Source of the DNA: Pirellulales bacterium
GTDB lineage: Bacteria > Planctomycetota > Planctomycetia > Pirellulales > DATAWG01
Assembly: GCA_035939775.1 (NCBI GenBank)
Contig: DASZFO010000360.1
Location: forward strand, 1 to 45,315
Direction: 5' to 3'
Length of the DNA stretch: 45,315 nt
Shown here: positions 186-3,968 of the stretch, one piece after another
How positions within the stretch are numbered: the stretch's first letter is position 1
Layout: every line of letters begins with the position of its first letter
The notes under the pieces: model-generated
What the model was told of the DNA's origin: nothing
The model's database searches: none
What the model saw: only the letters and a program-made list of their open reading frames with translations
Made by a program: the position numbers and the translations under genes

Positions 186-1979
186 TTACCCTTTCAGCAC
201 GCGCGCCAATTCGGCATGCGACGTCGTCCCTTTCACCACCAACACGGTGCCTTCCTCTTGCAGCGTGCGCATCCCGGCCTTCCGCGCTGCGGCACGGACG
301 GCGTCGAGCTTCGGCGTCGTTTTCAGCGCCTGCCGCACGCCATCGTCGACGACCAACAACTCGAAGACCGCGGTCCGTCCCTTGTAGCCCAACCCAAGGC
401 ATTCCGGGCATGGCGGCGGAGGCTGCTGGCCGGCGGGGGGCGGCGAAGGCGGACGATACAGCTCCGGCACCCGACCCGCCGGAATGCCGAGCTGCGCGAG
501 CGCTTCCGGCGCAGGCGCGTAGGCCTCCTTGCAGGCCTCGCACAGCTTGCGGATCATCCGCTGATTGACGACCCCGGTCACCGCCGGGGCGAACGTCGCC
601 GCCGGCACCTTGAGCATCAACACCCGCAAGAGCGCCTCGGCGCACTCTTTGGCGCGAATGCCGCTGATCACCAGCCGGTCCGAGCCGACCTCGTCGCACA
701 GGAAATCGACCGTTTGGGCGTCGGCCATGTCTCGCAACACGATCACGTTCGGATAGCTGCGAACTACCTTAGTCAGCGCTGTGATTACCGTTTCGCCCGC
801 TTTGCTATCGAAGGTGGTCACCTGCACGTTCTGGATCTCGTGCTCGCGCCGGGCAGCGTCTTCCACCGCCACCACGTCGCGCATGAACCGATCGAGCGAG
901 CGGATCGAAGTGTCGAGCGTGGTCGTCAGCCCGCCGGCGGGCAACGCCGAAAAGAGGACAAACCCCTTCGGGCGGCCGAGCACCTCGCCGAGCTGCTCGA
1001 CGACCTTATTGCGCATGCCCAACTCGTCGAAAGTCCACATGCGATCGATGGGGTCGGTCAACTGGATCACGGCGCGTTCGCCGGTTTGCACCCCTTGACT
1101 GACGATCCGGCAATTGCGCTTGGTTCCCTGATACTCGACGGCAAACGTGCCTTCCTGCTTCGCTTGCCGCTGGTTGGCGTTGAGCGCGGCGACCGTCTTG
1201 AGAACGGCAAGCATCGGGTCGCCGCCGATCCGATCGAGCGGCTCGTAGACGTGCCAGACGCCGTCGATCTGATAGCGCACGCCGACGGCCGCCTCCGTGT
1301 AGTCGAGCATGACGGCGTCGGCCCGATGCTCGATCATGTCGGCAATCAGCTCGCGCGCGACGGGAAAGCCGGGGGATTGCTTGGCCAAGAGGGAATTGGC
1401 CGTGTTCTCGCGATCGGTTTTGCCTCCTTGCCCCGTGAAATTGACCGGCGGGCCCTCTTTCTTGGCCTTCTTTTTTGCCGGATCGACTTTAACGCCGAAC
1501 TGCTTGATCCGATGCTCGTACAGGTGCCGCAAATGGTCGGGCGTCAGGATCCGCTTCTCGGCGGAGACGGCCGAATTGCGAACGATGATGTACGTGGCCA
1601 GCGGCCCGACATAAGCCAAGATCAGCAGAAAGAAGCCGATCGCGAACAACGGAATCATCCACAGCAGCAAGAACGCCGCCACGAAACTGAAGAACACGAC
1701 GGGATTCCAGAGCGCGTAGTTCAATCGCATCCGCTGGCAATCCTGGTTGACAAAATCGGTCGTCTTGACCCACAGCAGAAACACCAGCCAGCAGAGGATG
1801 ATCTTCGGGAGGCTGAGATAGCCCCCCGCCCCGCGAGAAAACGACCCTGGCATGTTGGGCCAGTTGCCCGGCGAATCCGCCCAGGCGGTTTGCGCATTGG
1901 CCAGCACCACGAGCGCCGCAAACGGAATTGCCGTCGCTCGAGCGGTCGCGGCGCCGAGCGCCTTGCGGATGCCAGCCAT
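186..1979 (-). CDS. Membrane-anchored PilB/GspE-like protein with degenerate P-loop
   Basis: A 597-residue relative of the type II secretion/type IV pilus assembly ATPases. Residues 1-36 look like a signal or anchor segment, and further hydrophobic helices lie near 58-74 and 95-134. Normal PilB/GspE proteins are soluble and lack these. The C-terminal half follows the family layout, including the paired CxxC zinc site (LCEAC near 480 and CPEC near 525). The Walker A position reads SALPAGGLTTTLD instead of GPTGSGKSTTL, so the lysine is gone. The Walker B position reads PNVIVLRDMAD instead of DPDxIxxGExRD. ATP hydrolysis is therefore unlikely, and a structural or regulatory role is inferred. The ATG overlaps the pilT stop as TGATG, so translation is probably coupled. 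A TTG one codon upstream is the alternative start. Confidence 0.85.
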   Translation of the reverse strand: MAGIRKALGAATARATAIPFAALVVLANAQTAWADSPGNWPNMPGSFSRGAGGYLSLPKIILCWLVFLLWVKTTDFVNQDCQRMRLNYALWNPVVFFSFVAAFLLLWMIPLFAIGFFLLILAYVGPLATYIIVRNSAVSAEKRILTPDHLRHLYEHRIKQFGVKVDPAKKKAKKEGPPVNFTGQGGKTDRENTANSLLAKQSPGFPVARELIADMIEHRADAVMLDYTEAAVGVRYQIDGVWHVYEPLDRIGGDPMLAVLKTVAALNANQRQAKQEGTFAVEYQGTKRNCRIVSQGVQTGERAVIQLTDPIDRMWTFDELGMRNKVVEQLGEVLGRPKGFVLFSALPAGGLTTTLDTSIRSLDRFMRDVVAVEDAARREHEIQNVQVTTFDSKAGETVITALTKVVRSYPNVIVLRDMADAQTVDFLCDEVGSDRLVISGIRAKECAEALLRVLMLKVPAATFAPAVTGVVNQRMIRKLCEACKEAYAPAPEALAQLGIPAGRVPELYRPPSPPPAGQQPPPPCPECLGLGYKGRTAVFELLVVDDGVRQALKTTPKLDAVRAAARKAGMRTLQEEGTVLVVKGTTSHAELARVLKG

Positions 1980-3148
1980 CAAAGAATCCCAGGTTGCGTA
2001 ACGTCGATGCCTTTGAGCGCCATTTTGAGGGCCTCGGTGTTCGGGGCGACCTCCAGGGCGACTGCGCGGTCGATCAAGTCCCGATCGACCAGGTCCTTCA
2101 AGCTGAGCGTGAAATCCTGCATCCCATCCTTGCTCGACATCCGGATCAGGTCGGAGAGCTTCTCGTCGCGGGCTTCGAGAATCAGCTTCTTGACCGACGG
2201 GCTGAAGGTCATGATCTCGACGGCAGGAACGCGTCCGACGCCCGGCTTGATCGACGGCAAGAGTTTTTGCGATACGATCGCCTTCATGTTGAACGCGATC
2301 GCGCTGCGCAGCGACGGGTGCAACTCTTGGGGAAAGAGATCGAGGATGCGGCCGATTGTCGTGGGGGCGCTCGATGCATGGATCGTGCCGAACACGAGGT
2401 GCCCCGTCTCGGCCGCCTGGATGGCCGTCAAGAACGTTTCGCGATCGCGCATCTCACCGACGACCATCACATCAGGGTCTTCGCGGACGGCGTGCTTCAT
2501 CCCCAGTCCGAAATCCCTCACGTCGATGCCGATCTCGCGCTGGTTGATCAGGCATTTGTCTTCCGTGAACGTGAATTCGATCGGGTCTTCGAGCGTCAGG
2601 ATGTGCTTGCGATAGTGGGCGTTGATCCAGTTGAGCATCGAGGCGATCGTGGTCGATTTGCCCGAACCGGTCACGCCGGAGAGCAAAACCATCCCCTGAT
2701 CGAACTTGCACAGCTCCTCCATGATCGGCGGCAGATTGAGCTTCGCGAAATCGGGGATGAAGCGATTCACGCGCCGTGCAACCAACCCCAAATGTCCTTG
2801 CTGCTGCAAGACGTTGACGCGGAACCGCCAGGCATTGCCGTCGACGTCGATGATGTGCGCGAAATCGACGCCACCATCCTCGTCCAAGAGCTTGCGGAGA
2901 CGGGTGTCGAGCATCGGCATGATCAGCCGCACGGCCTCCGCGTTGTCCAGCGGCCCGCGGTTCATCGGCCGCAGCGAGCCGTTCACCCGCACATAGGGCG
3001 GGCGATCCACTTTCAGGTGCAGGTCGCTTCCTTCGAGCTTCACCACGGCGCGGAATATCTTGTCGATATCCAATTCCTGGCGCTGCATCAGGAATCGATC
3101 TTCAACTTCGTCCGTGACGACCGCGTTATTGGCTTTGTGGGGGTTCAC
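1979..3148 (-). CDS. pilT: Type IV pilus retraction ATPase PilT
   Basis: A 389-residue hexameric retraction ATPase that powers pilus depolymerisation at the inner membrane. The core begins IDKIFRAVVKLEGSDLHLKV, the usual PilT N-domain. Walker A is GVTGSGKS (about 158-165), Walker B is PDVMVVGEMRD (about 225-235), and the His box is ETGHLVFGTIHASS (about 247-260). All catalytic motifs look intact. The chosen start is GTG at 3148, preceded by AAGAAGGAAG; an ATG at 3088 would also leave a complete N-domain. A longer upstream ATG would run into hisF. It lies 31 bases after hisF and overlaps the degenerate PilB-like gene, so an active and an inactive ATPase of the same superfamily are co-expressed. 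Confidence 0.95.
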   Translation of the reverse strand: MNPHKANNAVVTDEVEDRFLMQRQELDIDKIFRAVVKLEGSDLHLKVDRPPYVRVNGSLRPMNRGPLDNAEAVRLIMPMLDTRLRKLLDEDGGVDFAHIIDVDGNAWRFRVNVLQQQGHLGLVARRVNRFIPDFAKLNLPPIMEELCKFDQGMVLLSGVTGSGKSTTIASMLNWINAHYRKHILTLEDPIEFTFTEDKCLINQREIGIDVRDFGLGMKHAVREDPDVMVVGEMRDRETFLTAIQAAETGHLVFGTIHASSAPTTIGRILDLFPQELHPSLRSAIAFNMKAIVSQKLLPSIKPGVGRVPAVEIMTFSPSVKKLILEARDEKLSDLIRMSSKDGMQDFTLSLKDLVDRDLIDRAVALEVAPNTEALKMALKGIDVTQPGIL

Positions 3149-3179: not shown

Positions 3180-3968
3180 TCAGGCCGCGGTTCGGCTAGC
3201 CGTGCCGCGGACCGGGATGCCTCGCTCGTGCATGTGCCGCTTGACTTGTGCGATCGTGAATTCGCCGAAATGGAAAATGCCGGCCGCCAGCGCCGCGTCG
3301 GCGTGGCCGAGCAGAATGGCATCGGCGAAATGCTCGGGCCGGCCGGCGCCGCCGCTAGCCACCACCGGGATCGAAACGGCTCGGCTCACGGCCGCGGTGA
3401 TTTCGAGATCGAAACCGTTCTTCGTGCCGTCAGCGTCCATGCTGGTGAGCACAATCTCGCCCGCCCCGAGTTGCTCGACCTCTTTCGCCCAGGCGACCGC
3501 TTCGAGTCCCGTGCCGATCCGCCCGCCGTTGATGTGAACTTCCCAGACCTCGCGGCCATCTTTGCGCACGCGCTTGGGGTCGATATTCACCACGATGCAC
3601 TGGCTGCCGAACCGCCGGGCCGCTTGGCGGATGAACTCATGATCGCGGACGGCGGCCGAATTGATCGAGACTTTGTCGCTCCCGGCGTTCAGCAGGTCGC
3701 GGATATCGTCGATGGTGCGGATGCCGCCGCCGACAGTGAGCGGCATGAACACGACCTCGGCTGTGCGGCGAACCACGGCGAGCATGATCGCCCGACCTTC
3801 GTGGCTGGCCGTGATGTCGAGGAACACGAGTTCATCGGCCCCTTCGCTCTCATAGCGGGCGGCAACTTCGACCGGGTCGCCCGCGTCGCGGAGGTTGAGG
3901 AAATTCGTCCCCTTCACGACGCGGCCGCGATCGACATCCAGACAGGGAATAACGCGCTTGGCGAGCAT
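3180..3968 (-). CDS. hisF: Imidazole glycerol phosphate synthase, cyclase subunit HisF
   Basis: A 262-residue (beta/alpha)8 barrel that, with the HisH glutaminase, turns PRFAR and ammonia into imidazole glycerol phosphate and AICAR in histidine synthesis. The start [20 protein letters not shown] is diagnostic. The two catalytic aspartates fall at D11 (CLDVDRG) and D130 (VVNIDPK), the positions known for the family. Phosphate-binding loops LTVGGGIR and ASGGAG are present. Length is normal. No other his gene is in the window, so the pathway is dispersed. pilT begins 31 bases after its stop. Confidence 0.97.

Follow-up and report, generated by a model that had tools for sequence, protein, structure and literature searches.

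The window analysed here, a 45,315-nucleotide stretch of DNA from a Pirellulales bacterium, encodes a membrane-anchored pseudo-ATPase variant of the PilB/GspE fold family which, judged by its sequence, is neither PilB nor GspE. We refer to this protein as Q (597 aa; start ATG at 1979-1977; coordinates of all features in Table 1).

A PilB/GspE-type fold with a degenerate ATPase site

Residues 205-593 of Q match T2SSE (PF00437; E 1e-46), the sole Pfam domain above cut-off in the protein, and the nearest solved structure by sequence is Thermus PilF. The predicted structure is closest to PilB (Z 39.7, rmsd 2.5, 378 residues), and the two matches together assign Q the N2D-CTD traffic-ATPase fold of PF00437, as a predicted fold. 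Under NCBIfam, Q stays below the curated cut-offs for both GspE (196 vs 630 bits) and PilB (159 vs 676 bits). Pfam, which reports T2SSE only, finds no N1/MshEN domain at the N-terminus; a membrane module is found there instead.

When Q is aligned to Thermus PilF, the Walker A motif GPTGSGKS of PilF becomes ALPAGGLT, with Lys replaced by Leu351 and the preceding Gly and following Thr retained. At Walker B, VGEIRD corresponds to LRDMAD (Glu replaced by Asp417, Gly by Arg416, and the Arg lost), and the His box LHTND reads IRAKE. Q therefore lacks all three of the ATPase hallmarks of PilB and GspE: a Walker A of the form GxxxxGK[S/T], a Walker B GE with its catalytic Glu, and the His box. The CxxC pairs at 480/483 and 524/527 are intact, and with them the putative tetracysteine zinc site of PilB/GspE is retained. 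It is this combination, with fold and zinc site present while the ATPase motifs, the N1 domain and the curated cut-off scores are missing, that leads us to class Q as a pseudo-ATPase variant. A search against a defence-system library gave no match.

An earlier note, made from the letters of this DNA, had described Q as a relative of PilB/GspE anchored in the membrane, with destroyed Walker motifs, and the fold match, the predicted helices and the lost motifs bear out that description. Its reading of a Walker A motif without Lys is likewise borne out by Leu351.

Table 1. Features of the cassette in the window.
Feature	Position	Strand	Basis
Q: signal-like N-terminus, three predicted TM helices, PilB/GspE-type N2D-CTD, putatively dead ATPase site	186..1979	-	Pfam, alignment, predicted structure
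Membrane module of Q, residues ~1-152: signal-like segment and predicted TM helices	1524..1979	-	predictions; profile A2
Pseudo-Walker A ALPAGGLTTT, residues 345-354, Lys replaced by Leu351	918..947	-	Lys 0/67, Gly350 67/67
Degenerate Walker B LRDMAD, residues 415-420	720..737	-	alignment
Tetracysteine zinc module (putative, by sequence), Cys480, 483, 524, 527	399..542	-	invariant 67/67
pilT, intact; probable GTG start at 3148, GGAAG upstream; stop overlaps Q start	1979..3148	-	NCBIfam pilT_fam E 5e-114
hisF, conserved upstream neighbour	3180..3968	-	67 loci
Start of CvpA-like (PF02674) gene, MWFNLVLLVIFAACVAMTMREGL, cut by contig end	1..70	-	score vs cassette CvpA-like proteins

The loss is fixed and Q is maintained across the order

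The earlier note had proposed aligning homologues to see whether the losses are fixed, and had named homologues that keep the Walker residues as an outcome that would count against it. We compared 67 sequences of the order, drawn from genomes of about 20 families and from records titled Pirellulales and other planctomycetes (Thermus PilF was left out of this set). None has the Walker A Lys, which is replaced by Leu in 60, Tyr in 3, Met in 2 and Phe in 2; the loss is thus fixed across the order, and absence in 67/67 aligned sequences is far beyond chance. Gly350, the four zinc Cys, Arg477, Glu540 and Glu590 are invariant in the same set, in keeping with what the note had said of the CxxC pairs.

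The remainder of the site is eroded less uniformly. An acid occupies the Walker B position in 57/67 sequences (Asp in 45, Glu in 12), while the Gly that should precede it is found in none. The claim of a Walker B without Glu is accordingly right for the window, which has Asp417, and too strong for the family, in which the acid is weakened and not always absent. Ser or Thr is kept at position 352 in 57/67 and Glu373 of the Asp box also in 57/67; the second His of the His box survives in only 2/67. Since many members keep Glu373 and an acid at the Walker B position, weak nucleotide binding by Q is possible. In the N2D, positions 291 and 306, which align to conserved Arg of PilF and GspE, vary freely in Q.

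The reading frames of Q are open throughout the order and the gene is retained across it. Between closely related pairs, dN/dS is 0.04-0.24 overall and 0.025-0.235 in the stretch of the pseudo-active site. The overall values indicate that Q is not in decay; it is a maintained protein with no recognisable ATP site.

The membrane anchor preceded repeated loss of the site

Q is predicted to begin with a signal-like helix (residues 2-27), followed by TM helices at 57-84, 88-108 and 112-137. Many positive charges follow the third helix, which suggests that the ATPase-like part is cytoplasmic. A profile of the membrane module (profile A2) matches 115/149 class genomes and 24/199 phylum genomes, with one marginal match among 145 genomes outside the phylum (in the phylum of L072). 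Folded alone, the module has no PDB match at E 0.001, which does not in itself make it a new fold. There are also short Q-like relatives (L095, L096, L098, L101, L118) that have neither the membrane module nor the CvpA-like gene described below, several of them away from pilT.

Relatives in other orders carry the same membrane module, usually with the same pilT neighbour, and mostly have an intact ATPase site (GPTGAGKST, GEIRD). Within the class but outside the order, Lys is kept in 27/28 and the Walker B Glu in 24/28; among relatives from other classes, Lys is kept in 4/12 and Val, Arg or Gln stands in its place in the other 8. Because relatives with an intact site carry the same module, the predicted anchor is older than the loss of the site. 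The earlier note took membrane helices to have been added; such helices are indeed predicted, but they predate the loss of the site. Intermediates also exist, in which Lys is retained and GEIRD and the His box are altered (L182, L185, L188, L207). L185 has lost Walker B, the His box and the zinc Cys and still retains the Walker A Lys. In one assembly, a degenerate cassette (L103, G008:C1) occurs alongside a membrane-anchored copy that is intact and has a CvpA-like ORF after it (L104, G008:C92), although contamination of the assembly is a possible cause.

The Q tree groups the degenerate members together, possibly through long-branch attraction, and we therefore counted losses on a tree of the neighbouring PilT proteins, which is free of the trait. 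On that tree, the state of the Lys changes at least three times, and a single clade of losers is rejected (p-AU 0.0001). We thus take the Walker A Lys to have been lost independently at least three times, a lower bound that carries the caveat of a quick tree.

A conserved cassette with PilT and a CvpA-like protein

The pilT gene immediately upstream of Q ends in a TGA (1981-1979) that overlaps the Q start codon as TGATG, and many pilT-Q pairs show this -1 overlap as well. Its product exceeds the NCBIfam pilT_fam cut-off (381 vs 319 bits), and all 95 PilT proteins gathered from these loci retain the Lys of Walker A, the Glu of Walker B and the His. The translational coupling to an intact PilT noted earlier therefore stands. 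This PilT belongs to a separate lineage, with 41% identity to the PilT of the pilB-pilT-pilB cluster that the same genome carries, intact, on another contig. A further PilT paralogue in this genome (L007, on G000:C187) is 46% identical to the cassette PilT. One family of the class (f22; L179, L180, L189, L208) has an intact Q with the CvpA-like gene after it, and pilT is mostly not adjacent.

Clustering of neighbouring ORFs gave hisF-pilT-Q-CvpA-like as the usual gene order, with hisF in 67 loci and the CvpA-like ORF in 82; behind the latter there is often a membrane protein weakly similar to DUF4190. The pilT-Q-CvpA-like part occurs across the phylum. The position of Q beside pilT had been recognised from the start, but this third conserved gene had been missed. 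hisF is probably chromosomal context, outside the machine. Among the cassette CvpA-like proteins, PF02674 scores above its gathering threshold in three of four tested (L042, L105, L054) and below it in the fourth (L178). The 23-aa fragment in the window reaches a best score of 61 to cassette CvpA-like proteins, where 200 shuffles gave at most 46; no match to the remainder of the gene was found in the same genome. CvpA itself is a predicted inner-membrane protein with 4-5 TM elements (PMC6705877). In the literature searched, we found no description of a link between PilT and CvpA, nor of a dead PilB/GspE in planctomycetes; the P. limnophila essential-gene paper mentions a type II secretion cluster.

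Comparison with known systems

With PilB/PilF and GspE, Q shares the N2D-CTD fold, the DG motif and the tetracysteine zinc module, but it is without Lys, GEIRD, His box and N1/MshEN, and has its own signal-like segment and three predicted TM helices. In type II secretion, GspL holds GspE at the inner membrane (GspE-GspL complex, 4pht), so that there too a protein of PilB/GspE type is kept at that membrane. In Q, however, the anchor is part of the same chain, and the conserved neighbourhood showed no GspL gene. In the PilT-PilU pair of type IVa pili there are likewise two PF00437 proteins, and one acts solely by way of the other: PilU needs PilT, even a catalytically inactive PilT (PMC6762196). 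PilU, however, is an active PilT-type ATPase, whereas Q is of PilB/GspE type, membrane-anchored and apparently dead, and its PilT is the active partner.

Possible functions of the cassette

The reading we favour, although we hold it with no better than even confidence, is that Q is an inactive, membrane-fixed scaffold of PilB/GspE type to which a dedicated PilT is docked at the inner membrane, along with the CvpA-like protein. Q would sit in the inner membrane by its own helices, probably as a ring, and it and PilT would be translated in a coupled manner from one mRNA. Through contacts that we infer, Q would dock this catalytically active PilT onto a complex in the membrane, of which the CvpA-like protein would be one member. 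The work of ATP hydrolysis would then fall to PilT and its position would be supplied by Q, which may perhaps also couple the movement of PilT to the membrane partner, presumably in that direction. An anchoring role for PilT is plausible given the translational coupling and the conserved synteny. A further step, which we offer tentatively and regard as rather doubtful, is that the pilT-Q-CvpA cassette constitutes a separate PilT-powered inner-membrane machine and not a pilus, the PilB/GspE-type part having become a fixed stator in several lineages. If true, the motor family of type IV filaments would have been put to a purpose other than a filament in Planctomycetota.

The cassette also provides a natural experiment, in which one membrane-anchored protein occurs with an active or a seemingly dead site, the loss having occurred at least three times, while the adjoining PilT never loses its own. 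Whether a PilB/GspE-type protein can have a role without catalysis thereby becomes open to direct test, and PilT is joined with the CvpA family, itself poorly understood, in a single conserved membrane cassette.

The earlier note had suggested that Q may act as an anchor or a brake for the pilus motor. A pilus is possible as the thing that is moved, but the neighbourhood does not indicate it: the cassette PilT is of its own lineage, and clustering of neighbouring ORFs revealed no pilin, PilC or secretin gene conserved beside the cassette. Q could still act on the assembly side of a type IV filament that it and PilT both serve, with the platform, the pilins and the remaining components of that machine encoded elsewhere in the genome. 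GspF/PilC-type proteins do occur in all 26 cassette-bearing genomes tested, and an intact PilB-PilT-PilB set is available on another contig here; however, presence of PF00482 says little in genomes that carry several filament systems, and with no filament gene kept beside the cassette we consider this explanation unlikely.

The brake fares worse than the anchor, and we found no support for it. Here, Q would form a mixed ring with PilT, or stack on it and, as a regulator, hold back its ATPase cycle. Coupled translation, a fixed gene order and the shared PF00437 fold would all suit such an arrangement, but the free variation at positions 291 and 306 makes Q look unfit to complete PilT sites, its zinc module and anchor set it apart from PilT, and the intact relatives suggest descent from a motor in its own right. 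We judge a mixed ring or brake distinctly unlikely.

That Q is instead an ATP sensor, binding nucleotide through its changed P-loop without hydrolysing it, seems more improbable again. Such a role would draw on the invariant Gly350 and on the frequent retention of Ser/Thr352, Glu373 and an acid at 417, yet every member of the order has a bulky hydrophobic residue in place of the Lys, position 416 has gone from Gly to Arg or Pro, both His are mostly lost, and in other classes the Lys has given way to Val, Arg or Gln instead.

Finally, the idea that Q is in decay and persists because of the structure of its operon is hardly credible: its catalytic residues are gone, but neutral decay is rejected on dN/dS, and the frames are open, the zinc Cys and Gly350 invariant and the gene kept across the order.
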